The notes under the pieces are model-generated. The model was not told the origin of the DNA, did not search any database, and saw only the letters and a program-made list of their open reading frames with translations. A stretch of DNA of 21,092 nucleotides from a virus, in IMG/VR virus record IMGVR_UViG_3300045999_007893, positions 1 through 21,092 of that record; one strand, given 5' to 3'. This document shows, in pieces, positions 4,560 to 20,966 of this stretch. The position numbers and the translations under genes are program-made. Position 1 is the stretch's first letter; every line of letters starts with the position of its first letter.

Positions 4560-6741
4560 GGCATCGTCCCCCGTCAATCTGCCAATCCCTGGCGGACTGG
4601 CTACGTTGGAAGTTATTGAGGCCGCAGGCGGTTCAAAAATCCGCAAGTTCAACCTGCTGGCCTACACCGGGGGCAAGGCGTATTTGCCAGGCCGCAGCAT
4701 GCCAGTGGTGTTTGATCTATCGACCATGAAGATGGTCGGCGGCATGCCGGTGCCGCTTCTGCTGGACCACGACAACACGCAGCCCGTGGGCCATACCGAG
4801 TCAATCAAGATCGGCGCCAGTTCGATCACTGGCGTGGGCTATGCGAGCGCCGAAACTGAATGGCGTGACCGTGTTGTTCAGAGTGCCGCAAACGGATTCC
4901 AGTGGCAGCTGAGCGTTGGTGTGGTAGTCGATCGGTCGAATCTGGTGGAGGTTCCTGAGGGCCGTTCAGAAAATTTGAATGGACAGTTGTTGACAGGCCC
5001 TTTCGTAATCGCTAGGCATGCCGAACTACGAGAGATCACATTTACCGCGACCGGCGCAGACGCCGGTGGAGCGGTGGCGAAATTGGCCGCCAGTTTTGGC
5101 ACACTCGAACAGGAGTCGACCGCAGTGAAATTTTCCCAATACCTGACATCGCTGGGCCTGACGGTGGCAATGCTGAGCGCTGACGCCCTCACCGCACTGC
5201 GGACCAACTGGCGAGCCGCCAACGCCGAAGCTGAGGACGATGTTCCCCAGCCGGCACCGGAAGCCCCGGCACCGGAAGTCCCAGCCGCTCCGGCTGCAAC
5301 CACTCCCGCAGCTGACGCCCCGACCCTCTCTCAGTACGAGCAGGACACCGCCGACCAGGTGCAGCGAGTCGAGCAGCTGACCGCGTTAAACGCCTCTTTG
5401 CAGCCGCCGGCCATTGATGGCCAGTCTGCACTGGCACACGCGATCCGCAACCGCTGGACTCCTGAGCAGTTCGAGCTGCACGCCCTCCGATCGCGCCGCC
5501 CACAGGCTCCCGCAGTTCACACGCCGGCACCTGCTGACCGCGACCTGATGCAGGCATCGCTGGCAATCGCCTTCGCCGATCGTCTTGGTGTTCGCCCTGA
5601 CCACGCTGTCTACGAGGCCCGCGATTCGCGGATCTCGCTGAATGCCAGCCTTCGCCGACCGGTCAACGACCAGTTCCGGCAGCGGGCAATGGATCAGGCC
5701 GATCGCTTCCGCGGTCATGGCATGGTTGAGCTGTTCGCCCAGGCCGCCCGCCTCGGTGGTCAGGACCTGAGTCAGCTGGGCCACTGGCGGTCTGATGAGT
5801 GGTTGCGAGCCGCATTCAGTTCGACCGCAATCACCGATATGTACACGCAGGCACTGAACGCCCGCGTCATGGCGAGCTGGGTTGAGCAGACCAGTGAGCT
5901 GATGCAGCTGGTCACCGAGTCCGACGTTCAGAACTTCATGGCCGCTGAGCGCAAGGCTCTGGAGCTTACCGGCGGTGCTCCTCGTCCGCTCCCGAATCAG
6001 GGTGTGGCGAAGGACATCTCGATGAGTGCCAGTGGTGAGCAGATCCGGGCGAAGATGTACGCCGACAGGTTCCAGTTCTCTGAGCAAGACCTGATCGACG
6101 AACGCTTCGACACGCTTCGCCAAGCCGGTGCAGTCATGGGCCAGCGGTCCCGCCGTTTGCTTTACGACCTGATCGCATACGTGTTGATCGCCAACCCGAC
6201 GATGAGCAACACCAGGGCGTTCTTCAACACGACCGACGGGAACTTGCGAACCAGCAAAGCCCTGACCCGTGAAAACCTGATCAGCGGTCTGACAGCGTTC
6301 GAGACGCAGCAGGAAAACGGCGTCAATATCGACGTTCGTCCGACTCACCTGATCGTGAGCCGTGCAAACCGATTCACCGCCGCAGAGCTGCTGAGCCCTT
6401 CCGCTCTGATCACTGGCGAGAATGCGACCCGCAGTTCGCTCAATGTTCTGGCTGGCCAGATCGGCGGGGTTCTGTCGGACGCTCGAATCGACAACGGATT
6501 CACAGACCCGACCGACGTTGCCGACGTTCCGGCAACCGTGGCCGGTGTGCCCACGAGCTGGTGGATTGCAGACGCGACCCAGCCGGCTATCGAGCTGGTT
6601 TACGTGGCTGGCCTCGGACGCGTTCCACGCCTCCGCAATGGTCAGCTGGGCAATGGTCAGTTCGGGTTCTGGTATGACTGCAGCATGGCCGCAGGCATCG
6701 CACCAGTTCGCCGCAAGTCGGTTCAGCGTAACAACGCCTGA
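4537..6741 (+). CDS. Fused prohead protease and major capsid protein (734 aa)
   Basis: Two functions appear in one chain. Residues 1-190 look like a herpesvirus/HK97-type prohead serine protease, with H78 in LLLDHD, S126 in WQLSVG, and the late REITFTATGAD strand typical of that fold. A Pro/Ala-rich linker (about 235-265) and a helical, delta-domain-like region follow. Residues from about 480 to 734 resemble the Mu gpT-type major head subunit (the stretch ANPTMSNTRAFFNTTDGNL is characteristic). The open frame extends upstream to 4366, but the ATG at 4537 is preferred: it has a GAGGAC site upstream, begins at the start of the protease domain, and leaves only 23 nt of overlap with the portal. 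Self-cleavage presumably releases the mature capsid protein; the cleavage site cannot be read from sequence. Confidence 0.88.
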   Translation: MASKIKLEASSPVNLPIPGGLATLEVIEAAGGSKIRKFNLLAYTGGKAYLPGRSMPVVFDLSTMKMVGGMPVPLLLDHDNTQPVGHTESIKIGASSITGVGYASAETEWRDRVVQSAANGFQWQLSVGVVVDRSNLVEVPEGRSENLNGQLLTGPFVIARHAELREITFTATGADAGGAVAKLAASFGTLEQESTAVKFSQYLTSLGLTVAMLSADALTALRTNWRAANAEAEDDVPQPAPEAPAPEVPAAPAATTPAADAPTLSQYEQDTADQVQRVEQLTALNASLQPPAIDGQSALAHAIRNRWTPEQFELHALRSRRPQAPAVHTPAPADRDLMQASLAIAFADRLGVRPDHAVYEARDSRISLNASLRRPVNDQFRQRAMDQADRFRGHGMVELFAQAARLGGQDLSQLGHWRSDEWLRAAFSSTAITDMYTQALNARVMASWVEQTSELMQLVTESDVQNFMAAERKALELTGGAPRPLPNQGVAKDISMSASGEQIRAKMYADRFQFSEQDLIDERFDTLRQAGAVMGQRSRRLLYDLIAYVLIANPTMSNTRAFFNTTDGNLRTSKALTRENLISGLTAFETQQENGVNIDVRPTHLIVSRANRFTAAELLSPSALITGENATRSSLNVLAGQIGGVLSDARIDNGFTDPTDVADVPATVAGVPTSWWIADATQPAIELVYVAGLGRVPRLRNGQLGNGQFGFWYDCSMAAGIAPVRRKSVQRNNA

Positions 6742-6996: not shown

Positions 6997-7383
6997 ATGG
7001 GCGCGACCGTCCACGGTGAATATTCAACAGTCGAAAACGTGACCGCACTTCGCAACGTGAGCAGCGGCCACCTGCATGAATGCCCAGATGGGCGCATCGG
7101 CTATTACGGTGGCACGCAGAACGTGGCCAGCGGGGCTGTGATTCCGTCCCTCGAAACTGAGGTGGTCCTGAAGATCACTGCAGGCAATTTTGCGGCAATC
7201 GCCGCAGGACAGCCAGCACGCATCAATCTGACCACGCAGAGTCTGGCACTGACCGGCACTGTGATTGGCACGTACGTGAAGGACAAGGCCTTGAACGCCG
7301 CGTTCGGAATCGTCGCCTTGAACAACGCTGGCCAGCCGGCGAACACGGCACAGATTCCGACAACCACGACAGCCGCTCCGTAA
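6997..7383 (+). CDS. Putative capsid decoration/cement-like protein with PTTTTAAP tail (128 aa)
   Basis: The ATG at 6997 is preferred over the GTG at 6991 because AGAGGAG (6981-6987) lies 9 nt upstream. The small beta-rich protein follows the capsid gene, and its middle (GQPARINLTTQSLALTGTVI, then a Tyr-Val-Lys-Asp-Lys-Ala-Leu-Asn-Ala-Ala-Phe-Gly segment) looks like the DUF2190-type cement proteins that bind the outer capsid. That match is by eye and moderate. The last eight residues are PTTTTAAP, a Thr-rich tag that recurs in later virion proteins of this window. A strong intrinsic terminator follows 29 nt after the stop, so this gene closes the head transcript. Confidence 0.6.
   Translation: MGATVHGEYSTVENVTALRNVSSGHLHECPDGRIGYYGGTQNVASGAVIPSLETEVVLKITAGNFAAIAAGQPARINLTTQSLALTGTVIGTYVKDKALNAAFGIVALNNAGQPANTAQIPTTTTAAP
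7357..7380 (+). repeat. Thr tag PTTTTAAP at C-terminus of decoration-like protein
   Basis: Eight codons immediately before the stop encode PTTTTAAP. The same amino acid motif, with different Thr codons, occurs at 15130-15174 and starts the array at 16588. Confidence 0.85.
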
Positions 7384-7412
7384 TTGGCTGATCGGCCAAC
7401 CGACGAAACTCC

Positions 7413-7452
7413 GCAGGTTGCAGCGCGAAAGCCTGCAACCTGCCTGTTTTTT
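7413..7452 (+). terminator. Intrinsic (rho-independent) terminator after the head genes
   Basis: A perfect 11-bp stem (GCAGGTTGCAG at 7413-7423 with CTGCAACCTGC at 7433-7443) encloses a short loop containing GCGAAAGC, and six T residues follow at 7447-7452. It lies between the decoration-like gene and the head-tail joining gene on the coding strand, so it should reduce transcription from the abundant head proteins into the tail genes. Confidence 0.85.
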
Positions 7453-7463
7453 GAGACCATACA

Positions 7464-7817
7464 ATGACACGCCGCACAGAAGCCGCAGCCCATGTTCGCA
7501 GCCGCATAAAAGACGTGGCTGGCGAGGTTGCGACTATCACCCGCGGTGATGACGTAATTGTTTCCGGCATCCTGATCACGAGGGTATCAAGCCGCAAAAA
7601 CCTGCAGTCTTTCGGCGGTGATTTTACGGTTGACTCAACTGAGCAGCTGTGGATTATCGGCGTTGACGTTTGCGGTGAGGATTTGGAAATCGGGGACCTG
7701 ATCACGGTCGATGAAATCGATTACAGAATCTGCGAGTCAGCAGCAACCAGCAGGCACTGGCAGTGGTGGAATAACGACAACAGCGCCAAACTGTACACTT
7801 CAAGGCAGTGGCAATGA
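7464..7817 (+). CDS. Putative head-tail joining protein (117 aa)
   Basis: This is a small beta-rich protein located where head-closure or tail-attachment proteins sit, between decoration and gp10-like genes. The central segment (ITRGDDVIVSGILITRV) and LEIGDLITVDEIDYRI look like the barrel strands seen in such connectors, where a turn with Gly-Asp precedes a hydrophobic strand. The identification rests mainly on order and fold-like pattern. The 3' end overlaps the next start in ATGA (7814-7817), which implies coupling. The C-terminus has several Trp residues. Confidence 0.55.
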   Translation: MTRRTEAAAHVRSRIKDVAGEVATITRGDDVIVSGILITRVSSRKNLQSFGGDFTVDSTEQLWIIGVDVCGEDLEIGDLITVDEIDYRICESAATSRHWQWWNNDNSAKLYTSRQWQ

Positions 7818-8482
7818 GCAGCGTGGAAGAATTTGGTTTGCGGATGACGGTGAAGCAGGCGAAAACCCTGTTTCTCGATCGTCCGGCCATTGTCAACCAG
7901 CTGGACCGCGTATCGCGTCGCAGACTGGCCACGTTCGGCGCGTACTGCATGCGAGTGGCCCGCAACTCACTGACACCGAAACGAGACCTGCGAGCGGACG
8001 AGCTTCCGCAGGAGATCAAAGAGCTGGTAGGCCTCGACAGATTGCTGGTCAGGCGCGACAAACGGGGGCGATTTTTGGCCGGCGGAAAGAAGGCCAAAGA
8101 CGCTGAGCTGAAACAAATTGTTCAGCCGTGGCCGCAGACCATTTCAGATCCAAACTCACCGCCGAACTATCGCAAGGATTACACCTTCAGCGGGAAGATT
8201 TTCAGCCGATTCCGTGACCTGATTTTGTTCGTTCTTGAACCCAATATGGCCTCGGTGGTGATTGGCCCGATCATCTTCGACAAGTCGGACATCCCAGGCA
8301 AACTGGAATACGGCGGAACCATGATCGCTTATCGCCCGACGTGGTTTCTGGCTGGCGAAAATCAGGTGCGAGCGTACTACGAGAAAAAGCCGGTGCAGGT
8401 GGCTCCTCGGCCATATATGCGACCGGCGTTTGATGTTGCGGTTGACCGCAAAATTCCGGCAATTTTCAGGGAGATACTGTAG
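7814..8482 (+). CDS. HK97 gp10-like tail-completion protein (222 aa)
   Basis: The ATG at 7814 overlaps the previous stop; a GTG 6 nt earlier is possible but less likely. The C-terminal motif RPYMRPAFD near residue 205 is typical of HK97 gp10-like and lambda gpZ-type proteins, which sit at the head-proximal tail end and complete or terminate the tail. The N-terminus is helical and basic (Arg-rich, residues 20-50). At 222 aa it is somewhat longer than most gp10-like proteins, with a Lys/Arg-rich insertion at about 80-100. The stop overlaps the next gene's GTG by one base. Confidence 0.72.
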   Translation: MSSVEEFGLRMTVKQAKTLFLDRPAIVNQLDRVSRRRLATFGAYCMRVARNSLTPKRDLRADELPQEIKELVGLDRLLVRRDKRGRFLAGGKKAKDAELKQIVQPWPQTISDPNSPPNYRKDYTFSGKIFSRFRDLILFVLEPNMASVVIGPIIFDKSDIPGKLEYGGTMIAYRPTWFLAGENQVRAYYEKKPVQVAPRPYMRPAFDVAVDRKIPAIFREIL

Positions 8483-8952
8483 TGGCATACAAACACGGAC
8501 TGCGCGGCAAATTCTATGTCTCCGCAACTCTGCACCAAGCTGGCACGTCCATCACGTGGGCCGAAGTCGATCTGGTCGAATCTGTCGGAATGGAAGATTC
8601 CCGGGCAGTGGCAGACGTCACCAACCGCCGCGGCGAATTCGTCACGCACGGCGTGGGCAAGCGAACTCTCAGCTACACGCTGAGCTGCACCTATGACCCA
8701 GACGACGCTGCACAGGCCATTCTGTGGAATGCGTATCGCAACGGGACGCCGATCGCAATCGCTGACATGGATGGACCAATCGCGACCGCCGGCAGTCGTG
8801 GCGTGTTCGCGGATGTTGTCGTGACGAGTGCTCCGAAGCCCTCGGACCTGGCCGCATTCAACACGGTCGAATTTGGCCTCCAGCCCGCAGCTGTGAGCAC
8901 GTACCAGCCCACGTTCAACACCATCGCCGCGCCAACCACAACCACGGTCTGA
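8482..8952 (+). CDS. Major tail tube protein (156 aa)
   Basis: The GTG start at 8482 shares a base with the previous TAG and has AGGGAG (8468-8473) upstream. The beta-rich protein has a start of the form Gly-x-x-Gly-x-Phe-Tyr-Val and a middle with ESVGMEDSRAVADVTNRRGE, matching long-tailed phage tail tube proteins in length and layout. Location just before the chaperone and tape measure supports it. The C-terminus ends in APTTTTV, a short version of the Thr tag seen in three other virion proteins. Confidence 0.78.
   Translation: MAYKHGLRGKFYVSATLHQAGTSITWAEVDLVESVGMEDSRAVADVTNRRGEFVTHGVGKRTLSYTLSCTYDPDDAAQAILWNAYRNGTPIAIADMDGPIATAGSRGVFADVVVTSAPKPSDLAAFNTVEFGLQPAAVSTYQPTFNTIAAPTTTTV
8929..8949 (+). 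repeat. Short Thr tag APTTTTV at C-terminus of tail tube protein
   Basis: Seven codons before the stop encode Ala-Pro-Thr4-Val. It is shorter than the other tags and lacks the AAP end, so its membership of the set is likely but not certain. Confidence 0.65.
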
Positions 8953-8996
8953 CGTAGCGTTTCCAGTCCGTTTCAATCGCTTCTCGGGGGAAGCCC

Positions 8997-9188
8997 ATGA
9001 AACCAGTTGTCCATTTTGTTCGAGACGCCGCCGGCAACCTGCAGGCCTTCACCGCAATTCCGTTCATGACGCTGGAGGAGGCCCGCGAAGCTGGGGCCGC
9101 GAAAATCGTCGACCCCAATTTCATTCAGGCGAAAATTGCAGCCGCATCCGCCGCAATGACGGAGGGCAACGACAATGCCGCAAGTTAA
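8997..9188 (+). CDS. Small hypothetical tail-region protein (63 aa)
   Basis: The ATG is preceded by GGGGGAAG at a suitable distance. The protein has a beta-like N-terminus (Val-His-Phe-Val-Arg-Asp) and an Ala-rich helical second half. It overlaps the tail chaperone gene by 14 nt in another frame. The place between tail tube and chaperone is consistent with a tail assembly factor, but no family is recognised. Confidence 0.6.
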   Translation: MKPVVHFVRDAAGNLQAFTAIPFMTLEEAREAGAAKIVDPNFIQAKIAAASAAMTEGNDNAAS

Positions 9189-9642
9189 GTTGGCACGCGG
9201 AAAACAACTCCAGTGTGAAGCCACGCTGGGGTTACTCCGTCGCATCAAACGGATTCACGGCATTGACCTGTTGAGTCGTGACGTGAAGGTGTTTGCTCAG
9301 TTCCTTAGTCAGTCTGAGGTTTGCTGGCCAGTGGTATGTGAGTTCTATGGACTGCAGACACCTGAGGCACAGGAAGAGCTGGCAGAAGTGGCCAACGGTG
9401 CAGACGTCGCCGCATTGATTCGTGGGGTGAACGAAAGCCTCCGCGATTTTTTCCAGTCCAGCGGCGAGCCGGAGATGGCCGCCGCATTGGAGAAGGCCAT
9501 CGAGACGATTCAGGCGGGAAGAAACACGCTGGCGAAACGGATCACGGAGACGGATCTGGTGAGCGAGGTGACGCGGGAGATCCTCTCGATGGATTTGAGC
9601 CCTGGGAACTCGTCTATTCCGCAGCCGGCAGGCTCGGACTAA
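9175..9642 (+). CDS. Tail assembly chaperone, short form (155 aa)
   Basis: A helical acidic protein between tail tube and tape measure, the place of lambda gene G and its analogues. These chaperones coat the tape measure protein before the tail tube polymerises. The zero-frame product ends at 9642 after a helix (LVSEVTREILSMDL) and an apparently meaningless 12-residue end. In the -1 frame over the same stretch a conserved-looking continuation begins, so the short form is probably one of two products. The ATG lies inside the end of the preceding small gene, which suggests coupling. Confidence 0.75.
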   Translation: MPQVKLARGKQLQCEATLGLLRRIKRIHGIDLLSRDVKVFAQFLSQSEVCWPVVCEFYGLQTPEAQEELAEVANGADVAALIRGVNESLRDFFQSSGEPEMAAALEKAIETIQAGRNTLAKRITETDLVSEVTREILSMDLSPGNSSIPQPAGSD

Positions 9643-9848
9643 GCCCCGACCCTTACACCTGGCGGGAACTGGACATGATGGACAGGGCCCGCAGGTGTGA
9701 GGAGTGGGACAAGGTGTCGTCAATCATGTCGACCACTGTTGACGTCTGGTCGAAACGGCCGCAAGATCCGCTCCGATTCAATCCGTACAAAATCGAAAAA
9801 CCAAAGCCGCCGAAGCCGGAAATCAGTCCGTTTCTGCGGTGGTTGTGA
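9594..9848 (+). CDS. Tail assembly chaperone C-terminal extension, -1 frame (about 84 aa)
   Basis: This -1 frame stretch is open from before 9500 and encodes FEPWELVYSAAGRLGLSPDP followed by Tyr-Thr-Trp-Arg-Glu-Leu-Asp-Met-Met. That is the pattern of the distal half of tail chaperones (the gpT part of lambda gpG-T: an Ala-Gly-x-x-Gly-Leu-x-Pro turn followed by an aromatic-Thr-x-Arg-Glu-Leu motif). The first ATG in this frame is at 9675, downstream of the conserved motif, and I see no GTG or TTG start between 9516 and 9594. The sequence therefore needs a -1 frameshift from the 9175 gene. It stops at 9848, 9 nt before the tape measure start, filling what would otherwise be an unexplained gap. 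No canonical slippery heptamer was found. Confidence 0.75.
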   Translation, partial: FEPWELVYSAAGRLGLSPDPYTWRELDMMDRARRCEEWDKVSSIMSTTVDVWSKRPQDPLRFNPYKIEKPKPPKPEISPFLRWL

Positions 9849-9857
9849 GGTGGCAGA

Positions 9858-11984
9858 GTGGCTTCGAGTCGATCAGTACGAGCCGGGCGGGCATTCGTTG
9901 AATTCTTCCTTGAGGACAATCCCCTAAAGCGCGGTCTGACGGTGGCAGAACGCCGCCTGAGGCAGTTCGGTGCGAGGGTTCAGAACATCGGCCGAACGGC
10001 ATTCGCCGCGGGATTTGGGGGATTGGCCGCGACTGCCCTTCCGATTTCCCAGCTGATCGCATTCGATGACGCCATCCGCATGACGGGTGCAGTGTCACAG
10101 GCAACTGACGCACAGCTGGAGCAGATGAGAAACACGGCTCTCGAACTGGGCCGCACGACGTCATTCACGGCAGCCCAGGTGGCCAACCTGATGGGCGAAC
10201 TCGGGAAGGCTGGCTTCAGTCCCGACGAAATCGACAGCATGACGGCCGCAGTGTTGAATCTCTCACGAGCAAGTGGGACCGACGCAACAATGTCCGCCGG
10301 CATCATGGCCGCAACGCTTCGCCAGTTCTCGCTCGGTGCTGAGCATGCCACGCGTGTGGCAGATGTTCTGACGTTGGCGGCGAATGCGACATTCAATTCG
10401 GTCGACCAGCTGGGCGAAGCCCTCAGTTACGCCGGGCCGGTGGCTGCCGACCTTGGCATGTCACTGGAAGATACCGTCGCAATCCTCGGAACCCTCGGAA
10501 ATGTGGGCATTCAGGGCAGCAACGCGGGCACAGCCCTCCGCCGCCTCGGCACAATCACAGCCGCCGAAGCGGACAAGATGCGGCAACTGTTTGGCGTTGA
10601 GTTTCTGGACGCTGCAGGCAATCTACGACCGCTTGTGCAGGTGATGGGCGAATTGGCCAACGCCACAAACAACCTGCCAGCTGGCGAGCGAATCGCCAAA
10701 ATGAATGACGCGTTCGGGCTCCTCGGGATCACTGGTGCAACAGTGATGGCCAACACCGCCACGGAAACTCAGAGGCTATCTGAGCAGCTGAAAAACGCTG
10801 GTGGCGTTGCAGAGCAGACGGCCGGGAGTATGGACGCCGGACCCGGTGGCGTGTGGCGGCGATTCACCTCGGCTATCGAGGGGGCTGCAATCGCAATCGG
10901 GACCGCCTTGGCGCCCATGCTGGAGCAGTTTGGCGGATGGATCACCGCGACGGTTGGCCAGCTGACTGAATGGATCGGCATGAATCAGCATGTGATTGTG
11001 TCAATCGTCAAGCTGACGGCCGCGGTGTTCGCCGGTGGTGTGGCTCTGATTGCCGTGGCGAAAATCATCACCGCGACATCTGTCGTGGTTGGTGTGCTCG
11101 GGGCCGCGGTGGGTCTCATGCTGAATCCGTGGATTTCCGTGCCGGTCATTCTGATGGCCGCAGGCGCCGCAATCCTCTACAGCACTGGCACACTGCAGGA
11201 GATGGCCGCAGCCCTCACGGAAATGTTCGGCCCTGCCTACGATCAGGTGGTGGCTATGCTGAAATCAGGCGATTTTGAGGGGGCTATCGAGCTGGCACTA
11301 TCAGCCGCCGGGGCCGCATTGCGGATCGGGATGATCAAAATTCGGCAAGGCCTGAATGAGGCCGGAATCATGATCCGGGAAATCTGGGCACAACTCTGGA
11401 GCAACATTTCAACGGCACCATCTCAGGCGATTGCAGAGGTGCAAGACCTCGTTCAAGAGCTGACCGACTGGGCAAACAGGCTTATCGGCCGCGACGTTCC
11501 GCAGCGGATCAGCAATCTGGAAAAGGTGCAGCAAGAGATTCGGGCCGAAGAGGACAAACGACAGGCTGCCTACGAGCAGGAACGCCAAGCCTACGCACAG
11601 GAGGTGCAAGCGATTCAACTCGAATTACAGAACGAAATCGACAAGGCAAAGCAACGCACGGACCAGCTGCAACAGGACCAGAAAAAAGAGCAGATTCAAG
11701 CCGAACAAAAACCCGGGGCCATTACCCCGGGGCAGACAATGGCCAATCAGGTGCGGTCCAATTTGGCTGGAGCACAGCAGCAGCAGGCCGCATTCGTCGA
11801 CGCTGTGAGCCGACGCACACAGGAAGGCCAGCGGGCAATCTACGAATCACTGAATCAGCAGGCCGCACAGGACGAGACCACGGACGCTGTGAAGTCGCTG
11901 GAAGGCACGCTGGAGGATCAGTTTGAGCGTACCCGCCGCGAGACTCGGCAGAACGCTGTGGTGATTAGAGGGAGTCGGAAATAA
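9858..11984 (+). CDS. Tail tape measure protein (708 aa)
   Basis: The tape measure sets tail length and is ejected with DNA. The GTG start at 9858 follows GAGG with a 7-nt gap. Residues 60-320 match the TP901-type tape measure core: a FDDAIRMTGAV-like start, an LGRTTSFTAAQVANLMGELG segment, and Ala/Gly-rich helices. Residues about 377-440 form two or three strongly hydrophobic segments, as is usual for membrane-inserting tape measures. Residues about 553-617 are a Gln/Glu/Lys-rich predicted coiled coil. By the usual rule of about 0.15 nm per residue the tail would be near 100 nm. The stop shares a base with the next ATG. Confidence 0.95.
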   Translation: MASSRSVRAGRAFVEFFLEDNPLKRGLTVAERRLRQFGARVQNIGRTAFAAGFGGLAATALPISQLIAFDDAIRMTGAVSQATDAQLEQMRNTALELGRTTSFTAAQVANLMGELGKAGFSPDEIDSMTAAVLNLSRASGTDATMSAGIMAATLRQFSLGAEHATRVADVLTLAANATFNSVDQLGEALSYAGPVAADLGMSLEDTVAILGTLGNVGIQGSNAGTALRRLGTITAAEADKMRQLFGVEFLDAAGNLRPLVQVMGELANATNNLPAGERIAKMNDAFGLLGITGATVMANTATETQRLSEQLKNAGGVAEQTAGSMDAGPGGVWRRFTSAIEGAAIAIGTALAPMLEQFGGWITATVGQLTEWIGMNQHVIVSIVKLTAAVFAGGVALIAVAKIITATSVVVGVLGAAVGLMLNPWISVPVILMAAGAAILYSTGTLQEMAAALTEMFGPAYDQVVAMLKSGDFEGAIELALSAAGAALRIGMIKIRQGLNEAGIMIREIWAQLWSNISTAPSQAIAEVQDLVQELTDWANRLIGRDVPQRISNLEKVQQEIRAEEDKRQAAYEQERQAYAQEVQAIQLELQNEIDKAKQRTDQLQQDQKKEQIQAEQKPGAITPGQTMANQVRSNLAGAQQQQAAFVDAVSRRTQEGQRAIYESLNQQAAQDETTDAVKSLEGTLEDQFERTRRETRQNAVVIRGSRK

Positions 11985-12997
11985 TGGCGTTGCCGCAAGC
12001 ACGATTCTGGCGAAAAGAGCTGGCACACCAGCGAGACGGAGAGCTGACGTATCCGCAGGATGGAACGCCAGAGCGACGCGTGACGGAGTACTGGAATCTG
12101 ATCTGCCTGACCGATCAGGCGGATATGTCGGAGGATCTGGCGTGCGCCCTGTTCCCCGATCTCTGCCCGGGCACGTATCGCCCCAATGCGTACTACGTCG
12201 AGCGATTGAAGATCGACAAACTGGCCAACTCTGAACACTGCCAGGCGGTGGTTGAGCTGACGCTGAAAGTCGGGGCCGGAAGAGGCACCGTCAACGACCC
12301 GAATCCGCTCCGCCGTCCACTACGGTTCGAGGTTGGCACGGATTTCGAAGAGGTTCCGGCCGAAGTCGATGGCGAAGGCAATCCACTGGTGAACACAGCT
12401 GGCGAACCACTGGTGGGCATCACCCGCGAAGAGCAGGTTTTGGTGTTCACTGGCAGCAGGTTCATTACCCAGATTCCGCAGTGGCTCGGAGAGTTCGCCC
12501 ACGTTTGCGTCAACTCGGAACCAGTGGATCTTGATGGGTTCGTTGCAGAGCCGGAAACGCTCAAAATGAAGGGCGTAAAACTCAGTCTGCCACAGTATAC
12601 TGAGGTGGATGGCCGTGAGATTGAATTCCGCGAAATGCCGCTTCAATTCTTCTATCGCCAATCGACGTGGCGCGAGGAATACCTGAATCAGGGACTCACC
12701 GAGTATTTCCCGAAGCGCCCGATCTATGGGCCATACGACCAAACAGGATTCGCCTTCCTGCTGGGGTACACTCAGGAAATCCGCAGGCCATGCACGGACT
12801 CGACTGGCAAGCAAGTCTCGAAACCGGTACCACTAAACGCAGAGGGCAACCAGATCCGCGAATATGTCAACGTGGCTCCGCCGGGAAGTGCCCCACAGTA
12901 TGAGTGGGTCCTGAAACAGAAGCTGGAAAAGTCCGACCTGCATTTCGTGAAGTACCTGATTCCACGCAAACTCGATTTCAACCTGTTGTTTACCTGA
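11984..12997 (+). CDS. Hypothetical distal tail protein (337 aa)
   Basis: The ATG shares its first base with the tape measure stop and has GAGGGAG about 9 nt upstream, so it is in the tail operon. No family is recognised. The protein has no signal peptide or membrane segment, and contains several Cys residues in the N-terminal third, a middle with turn-rich Gly/Glu/Pro segments (residues 115-140), and an aromatic C-terminus. The gene directly after the tape measure usually encodes a distal tail or baseplate-hub component, and that is the most likely role by position only. Confidence 0.6.
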   Translation: MALPQARFWRKELAHQRDGELTYPQDGTPERRVTEYWNLICLTDQADMSEDLACALFPDLCPGTYRPNAYYVERLKIDKLANSEHCQAVVELTLKVGAGRGTVNDPNPLRRPLRFEVGTDFEEVPAEVDGEGNPLVNTAGEPLVGITREEQVLVFTGSRFITQIPQWLGEFAHVCVNSEPVDLDGFVAEPETLKMKGVKLSLPQYTEVDGREIEFREMPLQFFYRQSTWREEYLNQGLTEYFPKRPIYGPYDQTGFAFLLGYTQEIRRPCTDSTGKQVSKPVPLNAEGNQIREYVNVAPPGSAPQYEWVLKQKLEKSDLHFVKYLIPRKLDFNLLFT

Positions 12998-13008
12998 GGT
13001 GATACCAC

Positions 13009-15873
13009 ATGCCATTGAATAAATTCCGCGGTGACGCGTTACCGCTTGCAAAGGTGATTCGGCTGTTGTCCCCCGGGACTGCTGGCGTGGTCGATATCGA
13101 GATCAGCTGTGGGCCTCGGCTGTTCAAATTCTCGTCATGGAACCCGTCGACCATCGCCACGACGCTGCAAAATTCCGCCGCGCCAGAGTTTGCGAATTTG
13201 ACGTTCGGCGTGAGTGGCTCGGATGTTTTGGTTTCCGGGACTGAGGACGAAGACTTTCAGATTTCCATGGCCATTCGTCCGGCCGTCACCGTGGCCAATG
13301 ATCTGGGAGCGACGCCCGTCAACCAGATCACTCTGCTGACGTTCAACGGGGCTCGGGCGGGCACGTACAAGCTGACCATCAACGGCGTGCAAACGAGTGC
13401 GATCACCTACGGTGACGCCGCTGGGCTCCTCTCCGCAATCGACACGGCAACCGGGAAATCCTCGTCTGCCACAATTCGCACAGCGACCGCTGACCAGACG
13501 CTGTTGGAGTGGCAGGGCGATTTCGCGGCAACTCCCGTGGCTGTCGTTATGGGCGCCACAACGCTGCAGAATGGAACGGTGGTGAACGTCCGCGAAAGTA
13601 CTCCATACAAGGCGGGGCCGCATGACGTGTGGATGCTGGGCGTGGAAGCCAATTCCACTTTCACACTGACCATCGACGGCAACAGCGCCGCGGTGCGATC
13701 GGATGACGGCATCGACAAAATGCGCCAGATCGTCAAGACGCTTTCCACCAACGCTGTTGAGGTGTATGGCGGATTTTTCAAGGACGGTTCTGGAATCCCA
13801 TCCTCTCACTATATTCTGGACTTCACGGGCTACACATCCGCCGCACGCCCGACGATTTCGATCAGCAGTGTGGTGGGCTTTACGGCGCTGAAAAATCTGA
13901 ATGACCCAACCGCCCAGCTGTCTGTCACGACGGCATTCGGTACCGGAAACAGCAGTTCGGGCTATGCCGCTCACTATCTGCTCGACTTCACCACAGGCAA
14001 CACGATCACGCTGGAATATCAGGGCAAGCGGACCACCATTACGAATTCGGGTAGCACTGTTCAGCCCTACTTCAGCGACACGACGGGAAATGCAGCCTAC
14101 GCTACGGCCGCAGCTGCGGCCGCAGCGAGCCTAAACGACATCTCTGATTTCTCGGACTTCCTTGGAATTGTTGGCAAGCACATTGGCAACACTGAGTCAT
14201 GGGGAGCCGCCAGCTACGCGCCTTACTCGTTCTATCACCCACAGATCATTCACCTGATCGACAACGCCGCATTTCTGACCGGCGCCGCCATTGATGGCAC
14301 ACTCCGGCAGGTTGGTGGTACTGGGACACTCCGCAAAATCAACGACGCCGGAAGCACTGCATCCGGGGCCGTCCACGCAATCTCACTGCCAGCGAAAACC
14401 AGTTCTGGTTCGTTCCGTCTGACGCTGCCGGAAGGCACCACGGCCGCCATCGCCTACAACGCATCCGCCGCGACTGTCGAGGCACAGTTTGATTCACTGA
14501 TTGGGAGTGGGACATCAGTCACGGGATCCGGCACGGAAACCTCCCCGTGGCTGGTGACGTACGCAACCTCACAGAAAACGCGACCGCTTCCCGTGCCGAC
14601 CTCGGTGGCTCTGGGCGGCAATGGCACAGGCTCCGCCGGCATCTATCGGTACTCGGTCACCGCGCGCACGCAGAAGGCCACAATTGCCGTGGGCCGCTCC
14701 GCAGTCTCGGGCGGATTCTACTTGGCCTTCGACGGTCAGGGGCCGATTTACGTTCCCGTGGGCACCTCTGCTGCTTCGCTTCGGACATTGCTGGCCACGC
14801 TGCCGGGAATCGGCAACGTGGATAACGTGGTAGTCACCTATTCCGCAGATTCCACCAGCTATCTGATCACATTCACCAGCGGTCTGGCCAACCAGCTGTT
14901 GCCGACGTTCTTAATCACACAGAACGCCATTGACGCATCAACGCTCAATACCGTGGCACTGGTGCAGCGAGCGACTGGGCCGCGGAACTGGGCAGACGCA
15001 ACCAACTGGACTCTGGGCCGTCTGCCAGGGGCAACGGATGACGTAACAATCGACAACGCCGCTGGAGATATCCGCTACGGGCTCCGGCAGTGGGTTCCTG
15101 TGACCGTCGAAACGATCTACACGCCACTCCCAACGACCACGACCAGTTCGACCACGACCACGACGGCCGCTCCGATCGGGGCCCTCAATCGCCTGCGGGC
15201 GATTGGCGGGCACGATTTCAGAACGGGCCAGATTGTGCGCCTGCAATCCACAGGGACGATTCCCGGTGGGTTGTCTGCCGGAACCAACTATTACGTTCTG
15301 GACGCGGACAACGAGGCGGGCACATTCCAGCTGAGTGCGACCGCGACCGGCAGTCCGATCACAATCACGAGCGCGGGGTCTGGCACGATCTACTGTGGGC
15401 TGCAGGTGACATCCTTCCGGATTGCCGCGGCCTACACCGCACAGCTGGGCCGCCCAGAACGCACCAACGTCCAGAACTCGGTCGAGTATCTGCCCCGCTA
15501 TCTGTCGATTGGCGTACCGTCCGGGACTGCTGCCGAAATTGGTCTCGGCCTCGGCCGTGGATCCTCACTGATTCGCCTTGATCTGGGCATCTCCGCCGGT
15601 ACACTGCGAGTGGTGAGGACGGCATCGAGTGACGAGACAGATAAGGCGGCGTGCTGTGCATTGGTGAACAACACCAACGCAGCTGCTGAGGTGATTACTG
15701 GCGAACTCGGACTGGCTGCCTTCGATGGCGAGTCAGTGACGCTGGGAAGCCTTGAGCAGAATAACGGGCTGGTGGTTGGCGGTGCAGTGGCTCTCACGAC
15801 ACTGACCAAAAACGCCGGCCGATTGCTGATGCGACAACTGACGGCCGCTGGTGTGGTGACGATTCGGGGGTGA
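13009..15873 (+). CDS. Large adhesin or tail-fibre-like protein with repeated modules (954 aa)
   Basis: The protein is rich in Thr, Ser, Gly and Ala, as in beta-rich surface proteins. A module of the form Gly-Thr-Phe/Tyr-x-Leu-Thr-x-x-Gly, then an Ile-x-Tyr strand and an Ala-rich helix, recurs at about residues 117, 215, 466 and 567. This resembles adhesin repeats common in large planctomycete surface proteins. A Trp-rich stretch (NWADATNWTLGRLPGATDDV, near 661) looks like the start of a right-handed beta-helix domain. Residues 708-722 are the Thr tag PTTTTSSTTTTTAAP, which separates N- and C-terminal halves like a hinge. It probably acts in host recognition; no chaperone or enzymatic motif is visible. 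Confidence 0.72.
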   Translation: MPLNKFRGDALPLAKVIRLLSPGTAGVVDIEISCGPRLFKFSSWNPSTIATTLQNSAAPEFANLTFGVSGSDVLVSGTEDEDFQISMAIRPAVTVANDLGATPVNQITLLTFNGARAGTYKLTINGVQTSAITYGDAAGLLSAIDTATGKSSSATIRTATADQTLLEWQGDFAATPVAVVMGATTLQNGTVVNVRESTPYKAGPHDVWMLGVEANSTFTLTIDGNSAAVRSDDGIDKMRQIVKTLSTNAVEVYGGFFKDGSGIPSSHYILDFTGYTSAARPTISISSVVGFTALKNLNDPTAQLSVTTAFGTGNSSSGYAAHYLLDFTTGNTITLEYQGKRTTITNSGSTVQPYFSDTTGNAAYATAAAAAAASLNDISDFSDFLGIVGKHIGNTESWGAASYAPYSFYHPQIIHLIDNAAFLTGAAIDGTLRQVGGTGTLRKINDAGSTASGAVHAISLPAKTSSGSFRLTLPEGTTAAIAYNASAATVEAQFDSLIGSGTSVTGSGTETSPWLVTYATSQKTRPLPVPTSVALGGNGTGSAGIYRYSVTARTQKATIAVGRSAVSGGFYLAFDGQGPIYVPVGTSAASLRTLLATLPGIGNVDNVVVTYSADSTSYLITFTSGLANQLLPTFLITQNAIDASTLNTVALVQRATGPRNWADATNWTLGRLPGATDDVTIDNAAGDIRYGLRQWVPVTVETIYTPLPTTTTSSTTTTTAAPIGALNRLRAIGGHDFRTGQIVRLQSTGTIPGGLSAGTNYYVLDADNEAGTFQLSATATGSPITITSAGSGTIYCGLQVTSFRIAAAYTAQLGRPERTNVQNSVEYLPRYLSIGVPSGTAAEIGLGLGRGSSLIRLDLGISAGTLRVVRTASSDETDKAACCALVNNTNAAAEVITGELGLAAFDGESVTLGSLEQNNGLVVGGAVALTTLTKNAGRLLMRQLTAAGVVTIRG
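15130..15174 (+). repeat. Internal Thr tag PTTTTSSTTTTTAAP in the fibre-like protein
   Basis: Fifteen codons encode nine Thr, two Ser, two Pro and two Ala. It lies between two predicted beta-rich regions, so it would be an exposed linker. Confidence 0.85.
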
Positions 15874-15876
15874 TTG

Positions 15877-16776
15877 GTGGCTGATGAACTATTTGCGATT
15901 GAGCCGGCAGACCGCCGTCCGTTCAATGACCTGATCGACTGGTGGCAGCGGGTTGCTGTCAATGGTCCACAGTTCGTGGGCGGTGGCGGTGTCGAGGCCG
16001 TGCCGCTGATGATTCTGCGAGCGCCTGAGGGCTGGACTCTCGGGCGCTACGCTCCGATGGTTGTTGATCCTCTCTACCCCTACAGTTACGACGTGTGCCT
16101 GATTGGCTACCCAGCCGCCTACAACGCGGGGCAGGTCCAGCCGGGCACGTTCAAGGTGGCGTGGAATGACGTGGAGTCTGACCCGATTCCATTCAACGCG
16201 ACCGCGGTCCAATTCCGGGCCGCTCTCCCGCAACCGCTCCGCGACATCTGCAAAGTGACGGGCGGGACCATCACAGACACAATCAGCGGGACTGGCGAAA
16301 CGTACTACCCGGGCCGGTGGTTCGTTTCCCTTCCAGAACGATTCACAGGCCTGACAGCCCTTCCCCTCACCACTGGCACATTGGACACGGTGGTTCTGCG
16401 GGTGTCGGAATCGCCGCTCTCGGTGGCTCCGCTGGTGTTCCCATGCTGGTGCCTCGTCAATCGCACCACATCGCCCAGAATTGCCGCTGGTGCTCTCGGG
16501 CTGGGGTGGTTCACCCAGAATATCGGGCTAATGATTGGGGCCGTTGAGCCGCGAATTTACGAGGAATACAGTGGGATCATCTACCAGCCCACAACGACCA
16601 CGACCGCCGCTCCGACGGGGCCGACCACAACCACGACCGCGGGACCGACAACAACCACCACGGCCGGACCTGCGACCACGACCACCACAGCTCCAACAAC
16701 CACAACCACAACGACAGCCAATCCGACAACCACGACCACATTCGGATTCAGCACAGCACCGCCGGAAACGCCATGA
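15877..16776 (+). CDS. Adhesin/fibre-like protein with C-terminal mucin-like Thr array (299 aa)
   Basis: The GTG at 15877 is preferred (GGGGG ends 6 nt upstream); a TTG at 15874 would add one residue. The globular part is about 237 aa and contains one copy of the module found in the preceding protein (QPGTFKVAWNDVESDPIPFN, residues about 87-106, with a following Ala/Arg helix). The last 60 residues are a Thr/Pro/Ala/Gly array of PTTTTTAAP and TTTTTAGP type units, like a mucin domain, ending in GFSTAPPETP. The stop overlaps the start of the first glycosyltransferase gene in ATGA, so the two are probably translated together. Likely a surface-exposed tail appendage. Confidence 0.7.
   Translation: MADELFAIEPADRRPFNDLIDWWQRVAVNGPQFVGGGGVEAVPLMILRAPEGWTLGRYAPMVVDPLYPYSYDVCLIGYPAAYNAGQVQPGTFKVAWNDVESDPIPFNATAVQFRAALPQPLRDICKVTGGTITDTISGTGETYYPGRWFVSLPERFTGLTALPLTTGTLDTVVLRVSESPLSVAPLVFPCWCLVNRTTSPRIAAGALGLGWFTQNIGLMIGAVEPRIYEEYSGIIYQPTTTTTAAPTGPTTTTTAGPTTTTTAGPATTTTTAPTTTTTTTANPTTTTTFGFSTAPPETP
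16588..16740 (+). repeat. Tandem Thr-rich array (TTTTT with AAP/AGP/AP/ANP spacers)
   Basis: About six units of four to seven Thr codons, separated by Ala-Ala-Pro, Ala-Gly-Pro and similar spacers. Thr codons are a mixture of ACG, ACC and ACA in varied order, so selection seems to act on the protein rather than on an exact DNA repeat. The coding strand is almost free of T across 150 bases. Confidence 0.9.
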
Positions 16777-17699
16777 AACTGACAATCGGGTTCGCCACGC
16801 ATAACGATTTTGACGGACTGTATTTTTCGGTCAACGCCCTTCGCCTCTATCACGCGTGCATGATGAGCGATGTTGAATTGATCGTAATCGACAACGCTCC
16901 GGACTCACCTTGTGGGCAGCGGGCAAAAGGGCTCTTCGACCACATCAACGCCGGGATCCGCAGTGGGCAGCCGGGACATCCGTTTTCCGCTCGGTGGATT
17001 CCGTTTGGCGAGATCCAAGGCACCTCGGCACCGCGGGACAGGATCTTCCGCGAGGCCGCTGGGGACGCTGTGCTGGTGATGGATTCGCACGTCATGCTGG
17101 TGCCCGGGGCGGTCGAAAGGCTGCTGACGTTTTACCGCAGCAATCCAGACTGCAAAGACCTGCTTTCCGGGCCGCTCCTGCTGGACAGTCACGCGACAGT
17201 CTACACGCATTTCACGGACGTCTGGCGTGATGGCATGTGGGGAACGTGGGGCATCGACGAACGCGGGCGGGACATCTTGGCGGAACCATTTTCAATCCCG
17301 GCGATGGGCCTCGGATTGTTTACCTGCCGAAAAGACGCGTGGCTCGGATTCAATCCGCATTTCCGCGAGTTCGGCGGGGAGGAGTGGTACATCCACGAGA
17401 AGTTCCGGAAGGCTGGCCACGATTGCAAGTGCCTGCCGTTCCTCCGATGGCAACACCGATTCGGGGATCCGGTTGGCGGGCGAAAATCGCCGCTCTCGCT
17501 GCATGGCAAAGTGCGCAACTACATGCTGGGACATCAGGAACTCGGGCTGAGTCTCGAGCGCCTTCGCAATCACTACGTTTACGGCATCAACGAAGACACA
17601 GGGCTGGCTGAATCCCGCGACGGGCGATTGGCGTCTGCACAGTTTGCCACGTTGGCCAGTAATCCAGTTGCCTACCCTGCCCTCTCATTGTTCTGCTGA
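16773..17699 (+). CDS. Glycosyltransferase, GT-A fold, polypeptide GalNAc-transferase-like (308 aa)
   Basis: The first 50 residues are the nucleotide-sugar-binding half of a GT-A enzyme (TIGFATHN, later VELIVIDNAP). The metal-binding motif is D104-S105-H106 in LVMDSH, which equals the DxH seen in polypeptide N-acetylgalactosaminyltransferases rather than the more usual DxD. Further on, FGGEEWYIHEKFRKAGHDCK (G201-G202-E203-E204) and then WQH (H228) resemble the acceptor-side GGEN...S.R.W.CGG and VGH motifs of the same group. The start overlaps the stop of the Thr-array gene by 4 nt. It likely transfers a sugar to Ser or Thr of protein, possibly to the neighbouring Thr tags. The donor sugar cannot be read from sequence. 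It could also be a general GT2 enzyme acting on a glycan. Confidence 0.8.
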   Translation: MKLTIGFATHNDFDGLYFSVNALRLYHACMMSDVELIVIDNAPDSPCGQRAKGLFDHINAGIRSGQPGHPFSARWIPFGEIQGTSAPRDRIFREAAGDAVLVMDSHVMLVPGAVERLLTFYRSNPDCKDLLSGPLLLDSHATVYTHFTDVWRDGMWGTWGIDERGRDILAEPFSIPAMGLGLFTCRKDAWLGFNPHFREFGGEEWYIHEKFRKAGHDCKCLPFLRWQHRFGDPVGGRKSPLSLHGKVRNYMLGHQELGLSLERLRNHYVYGINEDTGLAESRDGRLASAQFATLASNPVAYPALSLFC

Positions 17700-17706
17700 G
17701 GCCTTC

Positions 17707-18363
17707 ATGAAAATCCCAGCCTTCATCACATCCCGCGACCTCATGTCTGCCGTTGATATGGCGGAAAAGTTGCGGTCATGTCGTGGCATCAGTAGCGTGT
17801 GGATTATCGACTGTGGGAGCACGTACAAGCCACTTCTGGAAGCGTACTGCAAACTCAGCGGAGGGATCGCGGTTTCGTACGGGCCGAACGATGGCTGCCG
17901 GGCATACTGGCAGCGATTTGGGACACTGAACCAACCGCCGTTCTATCTGGTCACTGACGGAGATCTGGATATCAGCCACTGGGCCGGGGACGAAATCGAC
18001 ATCATGCTGGACCGGCTACGAAGCCAGCAACACCTCATCAAAGTTGGGTCTGCCCTGAAACTCTCCGACCTGCCCGACACGGAGCTGGGCCGCAAGGCCG
18101 TTGCCCACGAAAAACAATTCTGGCAGGACCAGACCGCGGAAGGATTCTTCGCGGCGGACATCGACACCACGCTGGCCATTTACCGCACACCAGACTGGCG
18201 TGGATACTATCCGGCCGAACGGTGCACCAAAGCCACTGCCCGACACCTGCCGTGGTATCTGGACGTCAATAATCTGCCCCCGGATCACGCGCACTATTTG
18301 AGCCGCGAGGACCACCAAGCCGGAACCCACTGGAGTGAAATGCTGCGATGCGAGCAAAACTGA
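17707..18363 (+). CDS. Glycosyltransferase-like protein, second of three (218 aa)
   Basis: The open frame extends upstream to 17644, but the ATG at 17707 is preferred: GAGG lies 5 nt upstream and the domain begins at once (MKIPAFITSRDLMSAVDMAE). Residues 84-88 are DGDLD in FYLVTDGDLDIS, the likely metal- and nucleotide-binding acidic motif. A second acidic set, ADIDTT (D151, D153), and a TARHLPWYLD segment near the end match a family of small GT-A-like proteins also found in phages and cyanobacteria, recognised by their ARHLPWY and THW ends. At 218 aa it is compact. Substrate unknown. The 3' end overlaps the next gene by 16 nt. Confidence 0.75.
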   Translation: MKIPAFITSRDLMSAVDMAEKLRSCRGISSVWIIDCGSTYKPLLEAYCKLSGGIAVSYGPNDGCRAYWQRFGTLNQPPFYLVTDGDLDISHWAGDEIDIMLDRLRSQQHLIKVGSALKLSDLPDTELGRKAVAHEKQFWQDQTAEGFFAADIDTTLAIYRTPDWRGYYPAERCTKATARHLPWYLDVNNLPPDHAHYLSREDHQAGTHWSEMLRCEQN

Positions 18364-19109
18364 AACTGCCCCACGTCACATGGATCACTCCGACCTATTG
18401 CCGGCCGCAGACGCTGCCGAATCTGATTGCCTGTTTTCTCGCGCAACGATACCCAGCCGATCGGCTACGGTTGGTCATTCTGGACGATGCGGATCAATAC
18501 GGGCCGGATTGCAACGGGGATCGGTGGCAGGTGGTTTCGGTTGCTGAGCGATATCCCAGCCTTCCGGCAAAATTCAACGCACTGGCCAGCCTATTTGTGC
18601 CGCGCGAATTTGATGACATCCTGATCGTGGCGGAGGATGACGATTCGTTTCTCCCAGAGCACACCATGGCCCACGTTGACGCTCTGTTCGATGGCGATTT
18701 CTCAAAACCCTCACGCGTCCGCAGTGATTACGGGTGCACCACGCTCGGAGAGTGTATTGAGGAGGCAGCCGACGGCCGCTTCCATGGCTCAATCGCATTC
18801 CGCCGCAGCCACTTTGAGGAGCGGGGCGGATGGCCGGAGACTGACGCCGCCAATTTTGATCAGCAGATGCTGAGCCACTTCGCCGCCTCGGGCAGGACGG
18901 TCGACCCATGCGAGTTTGCTGAGCCGCAATACGTTTTCAGGTGGCACACCAACCAGTATCATGGGCAATCACTGGCCAGCGGTTCCGGTGACACTGAGTG
19001 GTACCGAAATCACGAGGTGCAGAGACTGGCACGCCGGAAGGTTGAGACGATCGTTCCACAATTGGATCCGTATACGCAGGCACTGTATGCACGCCTCAAC
19101 TATCTGTAA
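18348..19109 (+). CDS. Glycosyltransferase family 2-like protein, third of three (253 aa)
   Basis: The N-terminus is a classical GT2 start (VTWITPTYCRP, then LRLVILDDAD), followed by an acidic motif E96-D97-D98-D99 in LIVAEDDDSF. HGSIAFRRSHFEERGGWPE resembles the acceptor-side part of GT2 enzymes, in which a Gly-Ser or Gly-Gly precedes a region of acidic and aromatic residues. The length is normal for a stand-alone GT2 domain. It overlaps the preceding gene by 16 nt and the next by 23 nt, so the cassette is a single operon. With the two upstream enzymes it could build a short glycan step by step. Confidence 0.82.
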   Translation: MRAKLKLPHVTWITPTYCRPQTLPNLIACFLAQRYPADRLRLVILDDADQYGPDCNGDRWQVVSVAERYPSLPAKFNALASLFVPREFDDILIVAEDDDSFLPEHTMAHVDALFDGDFSKPSRVRSDYGCTTLGECIEEAADGRFHGSIAFRRSHFEERGGWPETDAANFDQQMLSHFAASGRTVDPCEFAEPQYVFRWHTNQYHGQSLASGSGDTEWYRNHEVQRLARRKVETIVPQLDPYTQALYARLNYL

Positions 19110-20402: not shown

Positions 20403-20966
20403 ATGCGATTTTTTCGGTTACTCTCAGACTGGGCATTTACTCGACTGTTTTGGTTTTGTGTGCTGGCATCGTCAGCACAAGCCGACGTGATTTTGTGGGG
20501 GCAAGGCGGCAACGATCCGCCGCGCGACAACACACCATATCTGATTCGTCCGGGTGAGTCGCGGACCCAGCCATTTTGGATTGATAAGCGTTTTCGGATC
20601 AACGACCTCCGGCTGCAGGTCCAGGACAATCCGCTGAGCAGCGGGACGGGCCGAGTAACTGTCTGGCTGTCTGGCGAGTCGATCTATTCTGGTCCCGCTG
20701 TCACGCGGTTGACTGGGCTGGCTCGTGAATTGCCGGGAGGCTGGCATCACCTGACGGTCACGGGGCTGGAGAATCAAAGCCAGTGGGTGGGTAGTGCTGG
20801 GAATGCAGTGGATAGCCAGTTCGGCATACAGGACGCGCCGGGGCTGAATTTACAGGTGATTGGCGTGTCATTGGTTCCGGAGCCGGAGTTTGTGGTGTTG
20901 CTGCTGGTATGCTGTGCGGCTGGGATTTTTTGTGCATGGAGGGCAAGCCGTGGCGACAAGACTTAA
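20403..20966 (+). CDS. Secreted protein with signal peptide and PEP-CTERM-type sorting signal (187 aa)
   Basis: AAGGGGA (20391-20397) precedes the ATG. Residues 1-27 are a signal peptide (Arg near the start, hydrophobic core, ASSAQA cleavage end). The mature part is beta-rich with a conserved-looking LTGLARELPGGWHHLTVTG segment. The C-terminus is VPEP (158-161), then a hydrophobic helix (about 163-180), then basic RASR, which is the layout of the PEP-CTERM/exosortase sorting signal. Such proteins are exported and processed by host exosortase in planctomycetes and other bacteria. It may modify the host envelope, or it may be a host gene flanking a prophage. The next gene begins inside its end. 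Confidence 0.75.
   Translation: MRFFRLLSDWAFTRLFWFCVLASSAQADVILWGQGGNDPPRDNTPYLIRPGESRTQPFWIDKRFRINDLRLQVQDNPLSSGTGRVTVWLSGESIYSGPAVTRLTGLARELPGGWHHLTVTGLENQSQWVGSAGNAVDSQFGIQDAPGLNLQVIGVSLVPEPEFVVLLLVCCAAGIFCAWRASRGDKT

Follow-up and report, generated by a model that had tools for sequence, protein, structure and literature searches.

The window analysed here, a 21,092-base IMG/VR fragment of an uncultured phage (record IMGVR_UViG_3300045999_007893), carries a late gene module that, with a probability of roughly three in four, includes a phage-encoded cassette for mucin-like O-glycosylation of virion proteins. A glycosyltransferase (GT) termed GT1 would initiate on threonine-rich tags of these proteins, and two further enzymes encoded next to it would probably extend the sugar. 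Sequence, predicted structure and a linkage examined from both sides, enzyme and tag, converge on a polypeptide transferase that acts on Thr arrays.

Threonine-rich tags on virion-type proteins

Thr tags are present in four late genes of the window (Table 1), as the first-pass annotation had stated. PTTTTAAP forms the exact C-terminus of a small decoration-like protein and APTTTTV that of the tail tube protein, PTTTTSSTTTTTAAP lies inside a large tail/fibre-like protein (residues 707–722 of 954), and a fibre-like protein holds a Thr array of about 51 residues (238–289 of 300) followed by 11 more residues. Because the large array precedes these 11 residues and the tag of the large tail protein is internal, two tags, and not three as originally claimed, are found at an exact C-terminus. 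The 20 late proteins contain 10 runs of at least four Thr. When residues were shuffled within each protein (10,000 times), such runs averaged 0.55 and never exceeded 4, so that the tags are not a product of chance. Concerning protein identities, the assignment of the tail tube was upheld by a match to PHROG 1407 (major tail protein), whereas gene order is the basis of the labels "decoration-like" and "fibre-like", these proteins having no clear family match in Pfam, PHROGs or NCBIfam. Likewise, the Thr-array proteins could not be identified with Pfam or PHROGs.

Comparison with related phages indicates that selection on the tags is exerted at the protein level. The four core Thr positions are all kept in the decoration-like and tube genes (eight relatives each), with two to three different codons per position, and the PTTTTAAP tag of the former is kept in 11 relatives despite codon variation. 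The flanks of the short tags differ among relatives (AAP, PAP, TV), the internal tag of the large tail protein is kept in relatives at 57–92% identity, and the large array is freely rearranged yet Thr-rich in all of them. A DNA-level repeat (slippage or a mobile repeat) was considered as the origin of the tags and rejected, because the Thr codons vary between relatives at every tag position. A related phage contig of 45.5 kb (G042) has Thr runs in exactly the same four proteins and in no other gene, and two further contigs from phages, 65.6 and 53.3 kb long, have their sole substantial array in the gene directly upstream of a GT1 relative. Many viral contigs (L170, L183, L219, L233, L245 and similar) also encode small proteins with a PTTTTTAAP tail placed at the C-terminus or close to it, some of these contigs being fragments in which no glycosyltransferase was seen.

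GT1 and its two companion enzymes

The gene of the fibre-like protein with the large array overlaps the GT1 gene by 4 nucleotides (16773–16776, ATGA), in agreement with the first-pass annotation. Its claim of three consecutive glycosyltransferases is sustained as well: all three genes downstream of the array have features of GT-A glycosyltransferases, recognized by a Pfam GT2 match in the first, by the predicted fold in the second and by profile in the third.

By itself, GT1 displays a generic GT2 family match only (PF00535, above the Pfam cut-off). As a single-sequence search against the PDB yielded nothing useful, a profile of 54 GT1 relatives was needed. This profile matches the polypeptide N-acetylgalactosaminyltransferase (pp-GalNAc-transferase) pp-GalNAc-T10 (PDB 2d7i) over the whole domain (E-value 5e-6), while profile matches to enzymes other than pp-GalNAc-transferases cover mainly the nucleotide-binding half. 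For the predicted structure of GT1 (pLDDT 93), the 29 best structural matches (VIA entries) are all pp-GalNAc-transferases (Z 20.0–24.2, 2.6–3.3 Å over 243–259 residues), followed by a chondroitin polymerase (Z 18.6). D104 and H106 of a DxH metal motif, which takes the place of DxD, and the C-terminal H228 are invariant in the 54 relatives, S105 being replaced by C in a few, and the profile alignment places H228 at the "GH" of GalNAc-T10. PMC7185993 reports DxH from two families, GT27 and GT60, whose enzymes both act on Ser/Thr of polypeptides, and the motif is also described in PMC11074326; the C-terminal His is a metal ligand in GT27 (PMC7185993, PMC11074326). GT1, with 308 amino acids, corresponds to a catalytic domain alone, in which PF00535 is the only family found. 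The C-terminal ricin-type lectin domain is lacking, and GT1 is therefore not filed in GT27, although sequence and model suggest that it works like a pp-GalNAc-transferase. None of the 54 relatives matches PF11397 at an E-value of 0.01. Taken together with the linkage to arrays described below, the nearest structures and the invariant DxH and C-terminal His lend support to the earlier proposal that phage enzymes glycosylate the Thr tags in analogy to pp-GalNAc-transferases.

Based on these features we infer a sugar transfer to Thr together with its donor, the modification of the short tags, what the two companion enzymes do, and how the particle profits, as follows. GT1, as a cytosolic enzyme of the catalytic-domain type without lectin domain, would put the first sugar from a nucleotide donor on clustered Thr, with the large array of the fibre-like protein as its main acceptor and the shorter tags on the tail tube, decoration-like and large tail proteins as further likely acceptors. 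Elongation or branching of the sugar would probably fall to the other two enzymes, and the most likely benefit would be a coat which is hydrated, resists proteases, shields the particle or acts as an adhesive.

The second enzyme has no sequence-family match; it displays a DGD motif and a predicted GT-A-like fold (pLDDT 79, structural matches with Z about 13), and was found only in close relatives of the window among the loci collected. The third, GT3, stays below the Pfam GT2 cut-off and is clearly of GT-A type by profile, with an invariant DDD; it resembles polysaccharide synthases, and its relatives are found close to GT1 relatives in more than 12 distant loci. In locus L012, methyltransferase-like and sulfotransferase-like open reading frames (ORFs), identified by eye, are located between GT1 and GT3. 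A function as DNA-modifying glycosyltransferase was also considered and judged unlikely from location and predicted fold.

GT1 relatives are common in metagenomic phages and bacteria and occur in metagenome-assembled genomes (MAGs) of Planctomycetes. A tblastn search with GT1 and two divergent relatives against 50,697 records of isolated phages gave no match; the search itself works, since a TerL query did find matches. Some GT1 relatives are fused to methyltransferase-like (sugar-O-methyltransferase-like) domains (L007, L086). Bacterial relatives (L091 at 8234–10831, L092, L099, L102) are fused to HprK-like, PqqD-like, DUF6065, GT25 or sulfotransferase domains, and the gene upstream of the relative in L091 resembles that of a putative Tat-secreted protein with a Thr/Pro-rich tail. 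HprK-like and PqqD-like modules are seen in peptide-modifying systems. Judging from their sequences, the contexts of the bacterial relatives agree with a modification of peptides or proteins by this family, and the fusions look like an undescribed bacterial protein- or peptide-modifying system.

Linkage of tags and enzymes, and alternative explanations

Starting from the enzyme, GT1 relatives were gathered from viral contigs and GTDB genomes and grouped into 94 clusters at 80% identity; genes encoding at least 10 Thr within 20 residues were counted as Thr-array genes. The gene directly upstream of GT1 (position −1) is a Thr-array gene in 15 of 38 viral clusters (39%), as compared to 3 of 606 background genes (p = 1e-17), and the share at positions −2 and −3 is about 5% (2/37 and 2/36). 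For cellular genomes the corresponding counts are 9 of 48 clusters versus 3 of 607 background genes. The enrichment was replicated in 15 held-out clusters from a further scan, eight of which have an array at −1 (background 6/235, p = 5e-8). In the tree, the window is placed in a well-supported clade of 17, where the array is adjacent in 14 of 16 scorable members and the array proteins mostly share little beyond the array itself. One Schlesneria MAG holds three GT1 copies of this clade (L088, L089, L141), without an adjacent Thr array.

Starting from the tag, 50 viral records whose DNA matches PTTTTTAAP were compared with 50 control records containing an arbitrary 14-mer, and the whole records were searched. 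The GT1 family is present in 10 tag records and in none of the controls (Fisher p = 0.0012), any GT2 in 21 versus 3 (p = 4e-5), and PF11397 in 4 versus 0 (p = 0.12). The first-pass annotation had named an equal frequency of tags in genomes lacking such glycosyltransferases as contrary to its proposal; the comparison came out in favour of the proposal. In all ten records GT1 is located downstream of the tag, on the same strand and within 5 kb, with records of up to 192 kb in length; after removal of records closely related to the window or among themselves, six independent cases are left. PF11397 (GT60-like) genes lie 0.4–1.9 kb downstream of PTTTTTAAP genes in three of the four records (G003, G027 and G034, the tag records of L172, L196 and L203), which may suggest PF11397 as a second polypeptide-transferase family tied to these tags.

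Several points weigh against the proposed glycosylation cassette. An adjacent Thr array is missing in 63 of 90 scorable GT1 clusters, including L008 and L088 from the clade of the window itself, and background genes were the only standard of comparison for the enrichment. The tag records are longer than the controls (median 31 versus 18 kb); among records of at least 20 kb, GT1 is present in 9 of 34 tag records and 0 of 22 controls (p = 0.008). No GT2 at all is contained in 29 of the 50 tag records, though most of these are fragments. The short tags on the tube and decoration-like proteins are tied to GT1 only via the window's own genus, and gene calling followed a simple longest-ORF rule.

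Some of these points would be expected if the Thr arrays were flexible, protease-resistant linkers or low-complexity tails, with glycosyltransferases nearby since tail-fibre regions accumulate both. In a large number of phage proteins PTTTTTAAP arrays separate domains, often in records without a detected glycosyltransferase, and the GT1 clusters without adjacent array fit such a role. We nevertheless regard this explanation as unlikely: enrichment falls sharply from −1 to −2 and −3 although all three positions belong to one tail region, GT1 in the tag records is always found downstream on the same strand, and small virion proteins, too, have tags at the extreme C-terminus, where no linker is needed. 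The position of the three genes within the late virion operon, with a 4-nucleotide overlap, also speaks against a modification of host surface polysaccharide (receptor change or superinfection exclusion) in place of phage proteins. Many phage GT2 enzymes do have this function, the generic family matches of GT1 relatives are polysaccharide enzymes, and GT3 itself is polysaccharide-synthase-like; on the other hand, neither a membrane helix nor a lipid-carrier partner was seen, the GT1 structure points to a family with polypeptide acceptors, and Thr arrays are linked to GT1, so that we consider this quite improbable. Least probable of all appears an initiation by a host enzyme, with the phage enzymes merely extending the sugar or acting elsewhere. 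The tags in many records without detected phage glycosyltransferase and the GT1 relatives in Planctomycetes MAGs would be compatible with it, yet it is GT1 which looks like a polypeptide transferase of the initiating kind and which is tied to the array.

Known systems and the late module

GT27 (human GalNAc-T2 and GalNAc-T10, Toxoplasma GalNAc-T3) has in common with GT1 a GT-A fold over about 250 residues at 2.6–3.3 Å, the DxH motif and the C-terminal metal-binding His, and the Thr-rich mucin-like protein encoded next to GT1 is reminiscent of Toxoplasma CST1. Unlike GT27, GT1 belongs to a bacterial virus, is presumably cytosolic, has about 17% identity, and displays neither a ricin-type lectin domain nor a recognizable signal anchor. 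GT60/PF11397 resembles GT1 with respect to DxH and a location downstream of tags, and its acceptors are Ser/Thr of polypeptides as well; however, the GT1 relatives have no PF11397 match. By structure, GT1 may be nearer to GT27 or to GT60. In the mycobacteriophages Che8, Corndog and Myrna, phage-encoded glycosyltransferases act on capsid and tail tube proteins (Freeman et al., 2023, as related in PMC12363180). The window likewise encodes candidate glycosyltransferases in or beside its virion operon, and differs by the missing GT1 match among isolated phages.

Virion glycosylation by phage glycosyltransferases is known in mycobacteriophages. In the literature searched, a pair of GT27-like enzyme and mucin-like array was not found in phages, and nothing relevant turned up on the tag sequence, on GT27 and bacteriophages, or on threonine-rich phage fibres and glycosyltransferases. 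Mucin-type O-glycosylation is regarded as a eukaryotic trait, and according to one abstract (PMC5504323) bacteria lack O-GalNAc on Ser/Thr. Whether bacteria and viruses possess a widespread counterpart that is so far undescribed appears to us evenly balanced: lectin-less GT27-like transferases would be coupled with fast-remodelled Thr-array proteins, producing mucin-like tail and head coats in phages and acting on secreted or peptide-like substrates in bacteria, and might be related to how the eukaryotic enzymes arose. Coupled to mucin-like tags, a phage enzyme family with this catalytic build would offer a compact machinery in the cytosol by which short portable peptide tags are glycosylated. 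The abundance of PTTTTTAAP tails in environmental phage proteins would then be explained, and virion glycosylation would become directly testable beyond mycobacteriophages.

Table 1. Tagged proteins and candidate glycosyltransferases encoded in the window.
Feature	Position	Strand	Basis
Small head/decoration-like protein, 130 amino acids	6991..7383	+	ORF; C-terminal PTTTTAAP; gene order as sole basis of "decoration"
Tail tube (major tail) protein, 156 amino acids	8482..8952	+	PHROG 1407, E-value 2.5e-4; C-terminal APTTTTV
Large tail/fibre-like protein, 954 amino acids	13009..15873	+	Internal PTTTTSSTTTTTAAP; weak PHROG tail matches
Fibre-like protein, 300 amino acids	15874..16776	+	Thr array near C-terminus; predicted main acceptor
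GT1, polypeptide-GalNAc-transferase-like, 308 amino acids	16773..17699	+	PF00535; profile; predicted structure; D104-S-H106, H228
Second GT-A-like enzyme, 218 amino acids	17707..18363 (ATG 17707)	+	DGD motif; predicted fold
GT3, GT2-type GT-A enzyme, 253 amino acids	18348..19109	+	Invariant DDD; profile

The late module is arranged in the order of terminase, portal, fused protease-capsid gene, head and tail genes, tape measure, tail/fibre-like genes and the three enzyme genes. The fused gene (4534–6741) is one ORF combining head maturation protease and major capsid protein (PHROGs 133, 4523 and 371). An ORF of 187 amino acids at 20403–20966 ends in VPEPEFVVLLLVCCAAGIFCAWRASRGDKT, which by eye resembles a PEP-CTERM sorting signal, while NCBIfam gave no match.

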